From Chloroflexota bacterium (lineage in GTDB: Bacteria > Chloroflexota > Dehalococcoidia > Lucifugimonadales > UBA1127), in NCBI GenBank assembly GCA_026713825.1, contig JAPONS010000013.1:1-39777 (forward strand): DNA of 39,777 nucleotides. The letters are read 5' to 3'. Under the pieces are notes generated by a model, which ran no database searches, was not told the DNA's origin, and saw only the letters and a program-made list of their open reading frames with translations. Shown piece after piece: positions 16,201-21,346 of this stretch. Position 1 is the stretch's first letter. Every line of letters starts with the position of its first letter. Position numbers and translations under genes: made by a program.

Positions 16201-17958
16201 ATGGCAAGGGAAGTGGTCAATGAGCATGTGCGGTACGAGCCGGAGGAGAACCCGCCGCCGTTAATCGCGCTGGGGGCGGGGGCACAGGCGGCGATGCTCA
16301 TTGTCGCGCCGGTGGTGCTGACCGTCGTGATCGTGGTGCGCATCGCGGACGCGTCCGACAGCTACCTGACGTGGGGCGTGTTCGCGGCCATGCTGGTGTG
16401 CGGCATCTCGACGGTGCTGCAGGCGGCGCGGGTCGGGCGCATCGGGTCCGGGCACGTGCTGATCATGGGGACGTCGGGGGCGTTCATCGCGGTGTGCGTG
16501 GCGGCGCTGGACCTGGCGGGCCCGGCGACGCTGGCGAGCCTGGTGGTCATCTCCTCGCTGTTCCAATTCCTGCTGGCGGCAAGGCTTTCGCTGCTCCGGC
16601 GGATCTTCACGCCCGTCGTGACGGGCACTGTCATCATGCTGATTGCGGTCACGGTGGCGCCGATCATCTTCGGGTCGTTGACGGACGTGCCGGAGGGGAC
16701 GGACGACATGGCGACGCCACTGGCGGCAGGGGTGACGCTGCTGGTGGTGGGGGGCATGGTGCTGCGCGCGCCGTCGTCGCTGCGGCTGTGGTCACCGATA
16801 TTGGGGATCGCGGCCGGCTGCGCTGTGGGCGCGCCGTTCGGCCTCTACGACACGGGGGCAATTGCCGACGCAGCGTGGGTGGGCGTGCCCTTCCGCGACT
16901 GGCCGGGCTTCGACGTGACGCCGGGGCCGGAGTTCTGGGCGCTGCTGCCGGCGTTCATCGTCGTGACGCTGGTGGGGGCGATCGAGACGATCGGGGACGG
17001 CGTGGCCATCCAACGGGTGTCGCGGCGGCGGCCCCGGGCGACGGACTTTCGGGTGGTGCAGGGCGCGCTGAACGCGGACGGCGTGGGGAACCTGCTGTCC
17101 GGGATGGCGGGCACACTGCCCAACACCACGTACTCGACGAGCATCTCACTGGCGGAGGTCACGGGCATCGGCGCGCGGCGGGGGGGCATCATCATCGGCG
17201 TGATCATCCTGGCGCTGGCGTTCTTCCCGAAGTTCGCGGCGCTGCTCATCGGGATACCGTCACCGGTGGCCGCGGCGTACCTGCTCGTGCTCATCTCGCT
17301 GCTGTTCGTGCAGGGGATGCGGATCGTCGTGCAGGACGGCGTCGACCACCGGAAGGCGACGGTCGCGGGGGTAGCGTTCTGGGTGGGCGTGGGGTTCCAG
17401 AGCGAAATGATCTTCGCCGACCTGCTGGGCGACGGGTTCCTGGGCATCCTGCTGGGGAACGGGATGACGTCGGGCGCGATCGTGGCCGTCGCCATGATGG
17501 CGTTCCTGGAGCTGACCGGGCCCCGGCGCAGGCGGTTGCGGGTGGATGCGGGGGATGAGGCGTTGCCGCGGGTGAGCGGCTTCCTGCGAGAGTTCGCGAC
17601 GGGCGCGGGGTGGAACGCGGCATCGGCGGAGCGTCTGGTGCTGGTGGGTGAGGAGACGCTGGCGAGCATGGCTGACGGTGGGGAAGAATCAGCCACGGAA
17701 GACCCCCGGCGGCTGGTGGTAACCGCCCGATCGGTGGGCGGCGCCGCCGAGCTGGAGTTCGTGTCGGCGGCGGAGGGTGAGAACATCGAGGACCGGCTGG
17801 CCTACCTGGGAGAGAACCCGGAGATCACGGACGGCCGGGATATTTCCTTCCGGCTGCTGCGGCACCTGTCATCGTCAGTAAGCCACCAGAAGTACCACGG
17901 TGTGGACGTGGTGGCGGTGCGGGTGGCGGCGCGGCAGGGCGGGGAGGACGGGGGGTAG
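16201..17958 (+). CDS. NCS2-family nucleobase transporter with C-terminal degenerate GHKL-ATPase-like domain
   Basis: 585 aa. Residues 1 to about 440 form an NCS2 (UraA/xanthine permease, SLC23) transporter of the inner membrane with about 12-14 TM segments. Key regions are 'GSGHVLIMGTSGAFIAVC' in the TM3 half-helix zone, 'TLVGAIETIGDGVAIQRVSR' (the TM8 Glu binding site) and 'AGTLPNTTYSTSISLAEVTG' (TM10). The last 144 residues are soluble: 'GFLREFATGAGWNAASAERLVLVGEETLASM' followed by alternating strands and 'GRDISFRLLRHLSSSVSHQKYHG'. That order resembles RsbW/HATPase_c_2 anti-sigma domains, but the N-box Asn and the DxGxG box are missing. The substrate is probably a purine or pyrimidine. Confidence 0.85.
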   Translation: MAREVVNEHVRYEPEENPPPLIALGAGAQAAMLIVAPVVLTVVIVVRIADASDSYLTWGVFAAMLVCGISTVLQAARVGRIGSGHVLIMGTSGAFIAVCVAALDLAGPATLASLVVISSLFQFLLAARLSLLRRIFTPVVTGTVIMLIAVTVAPIIFGSLTDVPEGTDDMATPLAAGVTLLVVGGMVLRAPSSLRLWSPILGIAAGCAVGAPFGLYDTGAIADAAWVGVPFRDWPGFDVTPGPEFWALLPAFIVVTLVGAIETIGDGVAIQRVSRRRPRATDFRVVQGALNADGVGNLLSGMAGTLPNTTYSTSISLAEVTGIGARRGGIIIGVIILALAFFPKFAALLIGIPSPVAAAYLLVLISLLFVQGMRIVVQDGVDHRKATVAGVAFWVGVGFQSEMIFADLLGDGFLGILLGNGMTSGAIVAVAMMAFLELTGPRRRRLRVDAGDEALPRVSGFLREFATGAGWNAASAERLVLVGEETLASMADGGEESATEDPRRLVVTARSVGGAAELEFVSAAEGENIEDRLAYLGENPEITDGRDISFRLLRHLSSSVSHQKYHGVDVVAVRVAARQGGEDGG

Positions 17959-17965
17959 GGGTGTA

Positions 17966-18001
17966 GCCGCGTGGTGGAACGTTTGAAGACCACCACGCGG
18001 C
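17966..18001 (+). terminator. Terminator-like hairpin after the NCS2 gene
   Basis: A perfect 12-bp inverted repeat (GCCGCGTGGTGG / CCACCACGCGGC) with a 12-nt loop, 7 nt after the stop codon. There is no T-run after it, so it may be Rho-aided or an RNA-stabilising hairpin. Confidence 0.55.
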
Positions 18002-18088
18002 CGCAACTCACTTATATGCTGGCCTAGAGGGGATCACTGTCCCAAGGGTTCCCTTAGAACCGTTAGCTATTCGCCCGAGAGTATCTGG

Positions 18089-18343
18089 CTAGCAATTGGG
18101 CAGAGTGTCGAGATTATCCGAACACGAGGAGTTTGGGTCGGTTCGCAGGTATTTGCCCGTAAGTCCATTAATGACACGAACGTCTGCCCGACGGAAGTAG
18201 GGATCCTGCACGAAGTAGGTATGCCACCGTTGCTCGATGTGGTAGATGGCGTCTGACTTGGAGACTTGCCACCCTGAGCCGCACAGCGCCGTGATATCCC
18301 CGTAAATGTCCTTGCCAGTCCTGGTCACTCTTAGGTCTGCCAT
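18089..18343 (-). CDS. DUF3892 domain protein
   Basis: 84 aa. The ATG at 18343 is preceded by GGGAGG. The sequence covers the whole small DUF3892 domain: 'MADLRVTRTGKDIYGDITAL', then 'WQVSKSDAIYHIEQRWHTYFV', the strand 'RADVRVINGLTGKYLRT' and the closing 'DNLDTLPNC'. The family occurs beside prophage and defence or regulatory genes and has no established function. Here its promoter carries two TTGCGCAA-type sites that also occur at the start of the XRE gene about 1 kb away, so it is probably a repressed target of that regulator. Base composition is lower in GC than in neighbouring housekeeping genes. Confidence 0.8.
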   Translation of the reverse strand: MADLRVTRTGKDIYGDITALCGSGWQVSKSDAIYHIEQRWHTYFVQDPYFRRADVRVINGLTGKYLRTDPNSSCSDNLDTLPNC

Positions 18344-18369
18344 GTTGGGCGCCTCCCATAGTGTATTGT

Positions 18370-18420
18370 GTACTTGCGCACAAACACACTTTAACGTGAG
18401 TTGCTCAGTTGCGCAAGTAC
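18370..18420. promoter_or_regulatory. Double operator in the DUF3892 gene promoter
   Basis: A perfect 11-bp inverted repeat (GTACTTGCGCA ... TGCGCAAGTAC) spaced by 29 nt. Each arm contains a palindromic core, TTGCGCAC at 18374-18381 and TTGCGCAA at 18409-18416. Between and over them a promoter can be drawn on the minus strand: TTGCGC, 17 bp, TAAAGT. The TTGCGCAA core recurs at 19366-19373 before the XRE gene. Confidence 0.6.
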
Positions 18421-18450
18421 CTACAGAAGGCCAAAATGATGCATTTCTTG

Positions 18451-19038
18451 CTAAATGAGTATGCCCAAGTCTTGGAGGCGGATTCCGAGAGCTGTAAGGG
18501 AAACTCCCCACGCCTTCGCCGCGACGGACAAGTCTCTAAGCTTCTCTCTGTGTTCTGGCCGGCGCAGCAGTGACTCCGGTAGCAGGAGGTGCGCTGCTAG
18601 TTTGTTGGCGTTCATTTCCCGAATACGGTGATCCTCAGACAACCCGGCAGGCTCCTTAGCATAGCAGTAGGGCTGTAAACCTACTGTATCAAGGTCCAAG
18701 CTAAGTTGTTCAGGGCTGTCCGCGTCGTACACCCAGTGAGCAAACTCATGAGCGAGCGTGAAGCGTTCTGGGCCTATGATATCGACAAATAGGGCCTCGT
18801 GTTTCGAGTTGAGGACAATTCTCCGTTGACGTGGGGCCAACCCCCCAAGAATCGTTGTTCCATTGGGCTCATCAATTTCTTCCCAGAGGATTTCAAGCCC
18901 GTATGTTTGCTCGATGATCATTTCAATGGGGATGGGTAAGTCAACTTGCTGGCCAGTCCGTGATGCATGCCGTATGAGAATCTTGCTGGCAGTGCTTGCA
19001 TGTTGGTGGTTGGGACGGGGGTAAGTCATGCGAGGCAT
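18451..19038 (-). CDS. ImmA/IrrE-family zinc metallopeptidase
   Basis: 195 aa from the ATG at 19038, whose A is the last base of the XRE stop codon (TGATG), a classic coupled arrangement. An in-frame ATG 21 bases earlier is possible. The zinc motif 'HEFAHWV' lies near residue 98 ('PERFTLAHEFAHWVYDADS') and the downstream metal-ligand region is 'REMNANKLAAHLLLPESLL'. The N-terminal 'IRHASRTGQQVDLPIPIEMI' fits the family. Such proteases cleave a cognate XRE repressor on a stress signal, as ImmA does for ImmR and IrrE for DdrO. Adjacent pairing here supports the same job. Cytosolic. Confidence 0.9.
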   Translation of the reverse strand: MPRMTYPRPNHQHASTASKILIRHASRTGQQVDLPIPIEMIIEQTYGLEILWEEIDEPNGTTILGGLAPRQRRIVLNSKHEALFVDIIGPERFTLAHEFAHWVYDADSPEQLSLDLDTVGLQPYCYAKEPAGLSEDHRIREMNANKLAAHLLLPESLLRRPEHREKLRDLSVAAKAWGVSLTALGIRLQDLGILI

Positions 19039-19337
19039 CAGGACTTGTTGGCCTTCCATTGTCGTAGGAATTGGAGGGAACTCTGAGGGTCTGACGCGAG
19101 TGACTGCATCAAATCGGCGGGGAGTCGCCCTGCCGCCAACATCAGTTCGTCGTAGTCGCAAGACAGTGCTTGAGCAATCCTGCGCAAGAGTTCATCACTC
19201 GGACTCTCACGACCGGCTTCAATCTTGGAGATGTGTGGGGTTCCCACGCCCACCTTCTCGGCTAGATTGCGCTGAGTCATGGAGAGCCTAAGGCGTTCTC
19301 GCCTAATCCGCTGACCGATGGGCTCAAGGCTGCTCAT
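19038..19337 (-). CDS. XRE-family HTH transcriptional repressor
   Basis: 99 aa from the ATG at 19337. The DNA-binding domain is clear: 'IGQRIRRERLRLSMTQRNLA' then 'EKVGVGTPHISKIEAGRESPS' and 'LRRIAQALSCDYDELMLAAG' (residues 6 to about 70). The short C-terminal tail ends 'FLRQWKANKS' at the stop that overlaps the protease start. A TTG at 19373 would extend it by 12 residues but lies inside a palindromic TTGCGCAA site, so the ATG is preferred. The likely role is an autoregulating repressor that is inactivated by the coupled ImmA/IrrE protease. Operator copies also lie before the DUF3892 gene. Confidence 0.92.
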   Translation of the reverse strand: MSSLEPIGQRIRRERLRLSMTQRNLAEKVGVGTPHISKIEAGRESPSDELLRRIAQALSCDYDELMLAAGRLPADLMQSLASDPQSSLQFLRQWKANKS

Positions 19338-19365
19338 GAACCCTAGTATTGCTACTCTTGTGTAA

Positions 19366-19373
19366 TTGCGCAA
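19366..19373. promoter_or_regulatory. TTGCGCAA operator before the XRE gene
   Basis: A palindromic TTGCGCAA about 30 bp upstream of the repressor ATG. It overlaps any plausible -35 or spacer there (for instance TTGCGC, 17 bp, AATACT on the minus strand). The same core occurs twice in the DUF3892 promoter. It fits an autoregulatory site. Confidence 0.55.
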
Positions 19374-19379
19374 CTAGTC

Positions 19380-19686
19380 TTGCCTCAACATGCAGACGTA
19401 AACAGCAACTCGGTACTCAGGCCATCAATCCAGCGAGAAACAGCTCTAAGCCAAGACCCTGAGCACAAGCGTAATCGCATGCAAAACACCAAGGCCCTCG
19501 CACCGATGTGCCCTGTTGTTTGCTTAGCGTCATTGGCACTCCTGCAAAACCGTTGCCAAGCGACTCCAATATAGTGGGTCCACGACACCTCGCACGTCTC
19601 CACCATTCATGTCGTATGCTTTCATAAAGAGGGTGCAGCGTACTTGCTCTGCCTGCTCCCTTTCACCACACTGAGGCGGGGCCTGC
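19380..19686. other. Intergenic region with no recognised gene
   Basis: About 300 bp with lower GC than the flanking genes. No RNA family or coding sequence is recognised. One spaced inverted repeat, TTGGCA-N15-TGCCAA (19533-19559), could be a protein site but has no clear promoter around it. The region may mark the right edge of an acquired island. Confidence 0.5.
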
Positions 19687-20328: not shown

Positions 20329-20548
20329 GGCGGCGGTTGGGCAGCCTCACGAATGGACATAACGGCGAGCTTCTGGACGTTCCTCGCGGGCTCGCGATTT
20401 GGGCGCTCGCGGCGATGGACGGGCGGCACGCAGGGGGGTAGAATCGCGCTGTCCAACGCGCCGGGGCATCGGTCGAGGCGCGGCGGGGTGGAAATCGAGT
20501 CGGGCAACGGGCTCCCGTGAACGGAAAGCGGGGGCAAAGGAGGGACTT

Positions 20549-21346
20549 ATGACTCAGGTATTCAACGCGTACGCGGTGGGCGCCGCCAAGGGCATCGAGG
20601 AGCACGTGGCGTTCCTCGATCCGACGCCCAAGCGCATCCGGGCGACGTTTGCCGGCGAGACGATCGTCGACTCCCGGAATGCGGTCATCATGTACGAGAC
20701 GCGGCACCAGCCGGTCTACTACTTCCCGCTCTCGGACGTGAGGATGGACCTTCTGGCGGAGACGGCCCACGGCACCCACTGACCGATCAAGGGAGACGCT
20801 CAGTACTGGAGCGTCAAGGTTGGCGAGCGCGAGGTGGAGAACGCCGTGTGGGCGTACCCCGATCCGCTGGAGGACTGCGTGGACGTTCGGGAGTACGTGG
20901 CCCTCTACTGGAACAAGATGGACGCCTGGTTCGAGGAGGACGAGGAGGTCTTCATTGGGCCGAAGGACCCGTACACGCGGGTGGACTGCCTGGCGAGCTC
21001 GCGGCACGTGCGCGTCGAGGTGAACGGCGTGACGGTGGCGGAGACGACACGGCCGGTGCTGCTGCTGGAGACGGGGCTGCCGCACCGCTACTACATCCCC
21101 CGCGAGGACGTGAACATGGACCTGCTGCAGGCCAGCGACCGCGTTGCGGGCTCGCCTTACAAGGGCGAGGCGAACTTCTTCCACGTCGAGGCCGGGGGCG
21201 AGACCATCGAGAACCTCGCGTGGACGTACAACGAGGCGTGGGCGGAGTCGAGCAAGGTCTCTGGCCTCATCTGCTTCCCGCAGGGCAAGGCGGACACGTA
21301 CGTCGACGGGGAGCTGGAGCCGAAGCCGAAGAGCCGCTGGGACTAG
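20549..21346 (+). CDS. Tandem DUF427 protein with in-frame TGA at codon 78; candidate selenoprotein or nonsense-interrupted gene
   Basis: The ATG follows a strong AAAGGAGGG site. One frame encodes two DUF427 domains (about residues 28-140 and 150-255), total 265 aa if codon 78 is read through. Domain 1: 'RATFAGETIVDSRNAVIMYE', 'YYFPLSDVRMDLL', 'HGTH-TGA-PIKGDAQYWSV'. In DUF427 proteins this spot is a conserved Cys (xxCPxKG). Domain 2: 'HVRVEVNGVTVAETTRPVLL', 'YYIPREDVNMDLL', 'GSPYKGEANFFHV', where the site is Ser. The 188 codons after TGA stay intact and family-like. Readings: selenocysteine (a hairpin of SECIS geometry follows), a recent nonsense mutation TGC to TGA, or a base-call error. 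Biochemical function of DUF427 is not established. Confidence 0.75.
20783..20823 (+). promoter_or_regulatory. SECIS-like hairpin directly after the in-frame TGA
   Basis: Upper stem GACGCTC (20795-20801) pairs perfectly with GAGCGTC (20809-20815) around a 7-nt loop AGTACTG. The lower stem CCGATC (20783-20788) can pair with GGTTGG (20818-20823), including G-U pairs, across an internal loop. The apical loop starts 19 nt after the TGA and has G as its second base. That fits the known bacterial SECIS layout (loop 16-37 nt after UGA, G in its first two bases). Chance pairing inside a coding region cannot be ruled out. Confidence 0.45.

Follow-up and report, generated by a model that had tools for sequence, protein, structure and literature searches.

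A probable XRE/M78 derepression switch with shared putative operators and DUF3892 as its output in a Chloroflexota genome

Introduction

Among the closest described counterparts of the locus reported here are small regulatory switches that respond to DNA damage or single-stranded DNA. In the CapH+CapP system, a protease is activated by single-stranded DNA (ssDNA) and cleaves the repressor (PMC13373217), and PprI is also activated by ssDNA, its GAF-like domain being critical for this activation (PMC10904395). In 57 of 443 cases, a small uncharacterized protein came after the CapK+CapS pair (PMC13373217). We analyzed a stretch of 39,777 nucleotides, hereafter the window (assembly GCA_026713825.1, contig JAPONS010000013.1, positions 1 to 39,777), from a Chloroflexota bacterium, in which the genes for an XRE-family repressor, an M78 (ImmA/IrrE-type) metalloprotease and a DUF3892 protein form a compact cassette. 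XRE/M78 pairs and WYL proteins are regulator types that control operons of the cyclic oligonucleotide-based antiphage signaling system (CBASS) and other immune operons.

We consider it likely that this cassette was acquired horizontally and works as a derepression switch with DUF3892 as its one dedicated output. The evidence consists of the gene order and of putative operators that are shared by the XRE and DUF3892 promoters, nearly unique in the genome and conserved before DUF3892 in related genomes; in addition, DUF3892 is repeatedly paired with M78 or WYL genes elsewhere.

Results

Genes of the Cassette

All three genes lie on the minus strand and code, in transcriptional order, for an XRE-family repressor of 99 aa (19038..19337), an M78 metalloprotease of 195 aa (18451..19038) and a DUF3892 protein of 84 aa (18089..18343). 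The identities proposed in the initial annotation were confirmed by Pfam, each above its cut-off (HTH_3, 2e-14; Peptidase_M78, 5e-9; PF13031, 1.3e-9, the latter with 38.9 bits for a gathering score of 22.3). The ATG at 19337 was favored as the XRE start over a TTG at 19373, which falls inside the putative operator described below, and homologues begin at the same place. The XRE stop and the protease start do overlap by one base (TGATG), as had been noticed; the junction is identical in two relatives, G096 and G130, which favors translation of the protease from the ATG at 19038. The protease motif is HEFAH, and both HEXXH and the downstream Glu are intact and kept in G096.

Shared Putative Operators

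The initial annotation had placed a palindromic TTGCGCAA at the XRE promoter, where it is indeed found (19366-19373), and had read two further copies, one with a mismatch, as the arms of a perfect 11-bp inverted repeat at the DUF3892 promoter. The second exact copy in the window is located at 18409-18416 (shuffled sequences had a mean of 0.34, two being reached in 4 out of 100) and the one-mismatch copy, TTGCGCAC, at 18374-18381. The copies and the repeat are thus real; TTGCGCAA is better read, however, as part of a 16-bp putative operator, TTGCGCAANNNNRCAA, with one site at the XRE promoter and two around the DUF3892 promoter; upstream of the genes, all of these extended sites point the same way. 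The putative operator of the XRE promoter, TTGCGCAATTACACAA (19358..19373, minus strand), is an exact match to TTGCGCAANNNNNCAA and contains an exact TGCGCAANTACACAA. At the DUF3892 promoter, putative operator 1, TTGCGCAACTGAGCAA (18401..18416, minus strand), overlaps the proposed -35 element and contains GTACTTGCGCAACT, kept in L010/L025 (G096) and L144 (G130), and putative operator 2, GTGCGCAAGTACACAA (18366..18381, minus strand), lies just 3' of the proposed -10 element, with an exact TGCGCAANTACACAA at 18366.

The longest exact word shared by the regions upstream of DUF3892 and XRE is 8 bp long, which is not unusual (721 of 5000 shuffles), and we rejected TTGCGCAA alone as evidence; the case is carried by the extended operator and by its genome-wide rarity. 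The best 16-mer common to the two regions has 14 identities out of 16, reached in 1 of 500 shuffles. The perfect inverted repeat (18370..18420, no strand assigned; arms 18370-18380 and 18410-18420) arises because TTGCGCAA and the flanking GTAC are both palindromic. When the 100-bp region preceding DUF3892 was shuffled with dinucleotides preserved, arms of 11 bp were obtained in 9 of 5000 trials. The repeat is absent from both L010/L025 and L144 and was rejected as a functional unit.

By eye, we propose a DUF3892 promoter with TTGCGC and TAAAGT separated by 17 bp (18388..18416, minus strand; 7 of 12 consensus positions, also counted by eye) and an XRE promoter with TTGCGC and AATACT at the same spacing, 7 nt from the ATG (19345..19373, minus strand). 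The candidates seen by eye in G096 are similar, TTGCGC - 17 - TATAGT for DUF3892 and TTGCGC - 17 - GACAAT - 7 - GTG for XRE. With 7 nt between the -10 element and the start codon, the XRE mRNA is possibly leaderless.

Rarity in the Genome and Conservation in Relatives

The 2.64-Mb genome of the window (G000) contains two exact matches to TGCGCAANTACACAA, both at the promoters of the module, and none with one mismatch. For TTGCGCAANNNNNCAA, G000 has three exact matches and G096 has four; the module accounts for two of the former, and the orthologous module for three of the latter. The genome-wide scan thus found the motif to be local, not common, and, given that exact matches are nearly exclusive to the module, the regulon would essentially be the module itself if the site is an operator.

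The module was recovered with the same gene order in two distant genomes, in G096 with 70, 61, and 73% identity to the XRE, protease and DUF3892 proteins of the window, and in G130 (68, 59, and 67%). In G096, TTGCGCAAGCGCACAA is found at the XRE promoter and both TTGCGCAACTCTGCAA and TTGCGCAATGCCGCAA at the DUF3892 promoter; in G130, TTGCGCAACTGCACAA is found at the DUF3892 promoter. The TTGCGCAANNNNRCAA form is exact in six of the seven sites of these three genomes, the seventh having one mismatch. The GTACTTGCGCAACT of the first DUF3892 site is kept in all three lineages, and G130 lacks the second site. By eye, the 8-9 kb around the G096 and G130 modules showed no gene recognizable as that of an integrase or a phage. 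In G373 (L151), a more distant colinear relative, the DUF3892 and XRE upstream regions have two 10-mers in common, one of which (TCAACACAAT) is inverse and present at both promoters; we considered this similarity weak.

DUF3892 With M78 and XRE Genes in Other Genomes

Genome contigs were scanned with a DUF3892 alignment together with one C-terminal peptide pattern, and 80 of 89 relatives were kept; the fractions given below thus hold for this DUF3892 subfamily only. M78 and XRE neighbors were found with profiles built in this analysis. Of the 80 loci, 43 have an M78 gene 5' of DUF3892 at a distance of no more than 1.55 kb vs one with an M78 gene 3' of it within 5 kb; XRE genes are found up to 5 kb 5' of DUF3892 in 37 loci vs 3' of it in two. 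The proximity of DUF3892 to XRE/ImmA pairs, which the initial annotation had proposed to look for elsewhere, is thus found in many other genomes. The contig-end loci L048 and L095, and L056, whose protein is divergent with a HEXXH motif, were left out of the 43. By protease identity, the 43 linked loci and the window fall into 28 groups at 90%, 23 at 70%, and 12 at 50%. The arrangement is mostly divergent, with XRE-M78 one way and DUF3892 the other, mainly in Pseudomonadota; it is colinear in the window, G096, G130, and G373.

Divergent loci have repeated palindromes of their own in the space that separates XRE from DUF3892. In 14 selected loci, two of them without a site, an XRE-type palindrome has 16 sites in intergenic DNA totaling 3,964 bp vs nine in 118,283 bp elsewhere, and a Sulfitobacter-type palindrome eight intergenic sites vs none elsewhere (four selected loci); these patterns, as well as the WYL palindrome below, were chosen after reading the sequences, so that the enrichments are descriptive.

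No XRE gene was found by profile in nine of the 43 loci (L064, L066, L068, L069, L073, L075, L079, L081, and L086), which have a sigma-like gene of one family or another between M78 and DUF3892, the M78 and sigma-like genes being divergent from DUF3892. A gene of about 140 codons stands between the sigma-like gene and M78 in L069, L075, and L081. The sigma-like protein of L081 matched Sigma70_r2 below the cut-off (4.5e-4), and two others tested against Pfam gave no match.

Among phage and plasmid hits, XRE/M78 genes were present in six of 14 regions (covering 14 of the 16 hits, with H10 and H11 left out); viral-contig DUF3892 loci had M78 in two of eight cases. In the phylum sample, DUF3892 was found in 13 of 400 genomes, with M78 beside it in three of these 13 within the fetched flanks. 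Several relatives are located on plasmids beside relaxase genes. The record of L011 (PP438431.1, "Synechococcus phage Ssp-JY41") has a RepA-like gene and 93% identity over 4.1 kb, in the relaxase/transfer region, to a Pseudosulfitobacter plasmid, the region matching Paracoccus plasmids similarly; despite its phage label, the record has the appearance of a roseobacter plasmid. L012, L017, L018, and many roseobacter loci have a second, divergent DUF3892 copy directly after the first.

WYL-Linked DUF3892 Loci

A WYL-domain gene lies directly 3' of DUF3892 and convergent with it in 11 of the 80 loci, none of which has a 5' M78 gene; with a plasmid locus, L015, these are L015, L046, L052-L055, L059-L061, L072, L077, and L090. 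The M78-linked (43) and WYL-linked (11) sets never overlap (hypergeometric 8e-5, the loci being non-independent). The WYL gene is divergent from a gene for a protein of more than 1,100 aa in four of the 11 loci (four were inspected), and in the Novosphingobium plasmid L015 the neighbor is annotated as a TM0106-family RecB-like nuclease.

The palindrome CGACN7GTCG has 14 exact sites in the 112 kb of the 11 loci and L015, 13 of them at DUF3892 or WYL promoters, defined as the 450 bp upstream of DUF3892 and 150 bp on either side of the WYL start. When one end is relaxed by one base, it is present at both promoters in seven of the 12 loci (six of the 11, and L015), at one only in L053 (WYL) and L072 (DUF3892), and at neither in L054, L077, and L090; a common palindrome at one or both promoters is thus found in eight of the 11 WYL loci. 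The WYL proteins matched only generic PADLOC WYL models, and no specific model identified them as CapW.

Relationship of the Pair to CapH and CapP

The window protease matches the PADLOC capP model (5.3e-18), and the window XRE matches HTH_VI (3.1e-12) and capH (2.3e-7). The protease aligns with positions 11-153 of the 242 of capP and then ends, and a search of the PDB gave no match for it at 0.01. Its Pseudosulfitobacter relative reaches position 203, with better scores for both capP (1.8e-46) and the solved CapP structure 7t5t (4.8e-23). By analogy, the window protease may work like CapP; because it lacks the CapP C-terminal region, we did not classify it as such. In G034 (L168), from the same order, a related XRE/M78 pair (41 and 31% identity) precedes a CBASS operon, being followed by a patatin effector (1.1e-87) and a CD-NTase (1.2e-112). 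Mrr-like and AbiE genes are found near this operon, and the region looks like a defense island.

The DUF3892 Protein and Its Companions

The AlphaFold2 model of DUF3892 (mean predicted local distance difference test score of 86.6) has seven strands and one helix. Foldseek gave no match with E below 0.5 for this model, ribosome-hibernation entries appearing only at E of about 3, and the best match in VIA-align, 8gwa_D (Z 5.3, root-mean-square deviation 3.4, 77 aligned positions), is not confident. A sequence-profile search of the PDB returned only designed proteins, beta-trefoils and the like, aligned over short stretches; we took these as chance. A dsRBD/HPF-like fold has been proposed for DUF3892, with a sensing role when fused to Min-Wnt (PMC12419801); the structural searches above speak neither for nor against such a fold. 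The literature on DUF3892 is scarce, with three papers naming it among 5.39 million searched, and, in the text available, reports no tested function.

Among the 80 loci, the companions of DUF3892 include DUF2188 (19 loci), a GRYVT-repeat protein (13 loci) and an AASKVL peptide (seven loci). One DUF2188 protein that was tested corresponds to the PADLOC phage-defense candidate PDC-S16 (4.5e-31). Homology between DUF3892 and DUF2188 was considered and found no support (hhalign probability 1.2).

Genomic Setting of the Cassette

The cassette occupies a low-GC inserted segment of about 1.7 kb (17958..19672, no strand assigned), with a GC fraction of about 0.53 vs 0.68-0.71 in the flanks according to the GC profile. 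In a congener, G002, the flanks align up to window position 17957 and resume at 19673, with about 89 and 91% identity, and about 1.3 kb of different DNA with a DUF6414 gene (8.9e-31) replaces the cassette (L164). The cassette was thus probably imported into a site whose content can be exchanged. This site lies between a permease gene and a VTT gene, and its counterpart of window 17958-19672 in G002 (L164, 2901-3905) carries the DUF6414 gene. XRE, M78, and DUF3892 are the only recognizable genes of the segment, in which we found no integrase or phage gene.

At 17966-18001, in the interval separating DUF3892 from the permease gene, a perfect inverted repeat of 12 bp is terminator-like without a T run. 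Further along the window, two adjacent DUF427 (NTP_transf_9) reading frames are located on the plus strand (20399-21346).

Discussion

In the switch that we favor, XRE would bind the TTGCGCAANNNNRCAA sites overlapping its own promoter and the separate DUF3892 promoter and keep both low; upon a stress signal, the co-translated M78 protease would cleave the repressor, and DUF3892 would then be expressed. We infer both the binding of the sites by XRE and its cleavage by M78, and, by analogy with CapH/CapP and PprI/DdrO, a DNA-damage trigger of the ssDNA type. A candidate region for the cleavage is the C-terminal FLRQW stretch of XRE, which reads HLRQW in G096 and FLRRW in G130 and is loosely analogous to the region of DdrO with the cleavage site (E116-L117-R118-G119; PMC10904395). 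The comparative evidence supports well the local XRE/M78 switch with a DUF3892 target suggested in the initial annotation, with the inverted repeat replaced by 16-bp sites in the same orientation.

Several observations weigh against this switch. A promoter scanner called neither of the two promoters proposed in the window, and both are weak by consensus. The third exact TTGCGCAANNNNNCAA of G000 (C26:98749) lies at the start of a 378-codon frame, oxidoreductase-like by eye, and with up to one mismatch this pattern has 26 matches in G000 vs 11 for a reversed control pattern (29 vs 30 in G096). No operator was found within two mismatches at the XRE promoter of G130, which argues against simple autoregulation. 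PADLOC gave no match for DUF3892. In 26 of the 80 DUF3892 loci there was no WYL hit and no M78 hit on the 5' side; L026, which ranked second by identity in the scan, is one of them. Finally, the C-terminal region missing from the window protease includes the part reported to be critical for ssDNA activation in PprI.

This last point is shared by an alternative that we regard as unlikely, in which a different signal relieves XRE, the protease being either inert or constitutively active, and DUF3892 is a housekeeping or metabolic protein under repressor control. The absence of the C-terminal region found in CapP-like relatives and the critical role reported for the GAF-like domain of PprI (PMC10904395) would fit such a scenario, but the protease has an intact catalytic HEXXH and Glu, both also found in G096, and its gene has been kept with its overlapping start in three lineages. 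XRE-COG2856 pairs have also been proposed to be toxin-antitoxin-like mobile stress systems (PMC2701414), and the window pair could thus regulate only itself, with DUF3892 as a chance passenger of a mobile segment. The foreign GC content of the segment, its replacement by other DNA in G002, and the 26 loci lacking both a WYL hit and a 5' M78 are in line with this scenario. We nevertheless find it quite unlikely, since DUF3892 has its own promoter region with two putative operators 1 kb from the XRE site, one of which is the most conserved of all, M78 genes are concentrated on the 5' side of DUF3892 (43 vs 1 of 80), and most WYL-type loci also have an operator in common with the DUF3892 operon.

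It is still less probable, to the point of being very unlikely, that the cassette is the remnant of a prophage or integrative element whose ImmR/ImmA-like immunity switch happens to keep an accessory gene. XRE/M78 pairs do occur in phages and control ICEBs1 (PMC2701414), and several relatives are on plasmids beside relaxase genes; yet the 1.7-kb segment contains three recognizable genes only, none of them for an integrase or phage protein, and the trio is intact in G096 and G130, without any such gene seen by eye within 8-9 kb.

Beyond the switch itself, DUF3892 may act in stress or phage defense, which we advance as a tentative suggestion, somewhat below an even chance. Equally tentatively, DUF3892 could be an unrecognized family of DNA-damage- or phage-induced effectors or protective proteins, repeatedly wired to unrelated regulators (XRE/M78 pairs, M78 with a sigma-like protein, and WYL) and traveling with DUF2188 and the GRYVT-repeat protein as exchangeable output. 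This nearly unstudied family gains in any case a regulatory setting seen in several phyla, with candidate operators, repressor, protease and a presumably inducible readout.

The window pair resembles CapH+CapP in the adjacency of the genes for an XRE-type HTH repressor and an M78 protease, and a relative of this pair from the same order stands ahead of a CBASS operon. It differs from CapH+CapP in that the C-terminal third of the capP model has no counterpart in the protease, the XRE protein fits HTH_VI better than capH, and the adjacent proposed target, DUF3892, does not belong to any known immune operon. ImmR/ImmA of ICEBs1 and PprI(IrrE)/DdrO of Deinococcus also associate an XRE repressor with an M78 protease (PMC2701414; PMC10904395). 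In contrast to ICEBs1, the window segment has no mobile-element genes, and in contrast to PprI/DdrO, the putative operator is local to the module rather than defining a genome-wide regulon. The operator sequence of PprI/DdrO, the radiation/desiccation response motif (RDRM), differs from that of the module. WYL regulators of the CapW/BrxR type are paralleled by the WYL genes convergent with DUF3892, which share a palindrome with it in most of these 11 loci, although the window module itself has no WYL gene. CapK+CapS with YegP likewise combines a DNA-damage-responsive regulator pair with a small protein of unknown function (PMC13373217), but both the regulators and the small protein are different from those of the window. 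DUF3892 may thus add, beside the YegP of CapK/CapS, another unexplained small protein to the outputs of regulators that turn on bacterial immunity.

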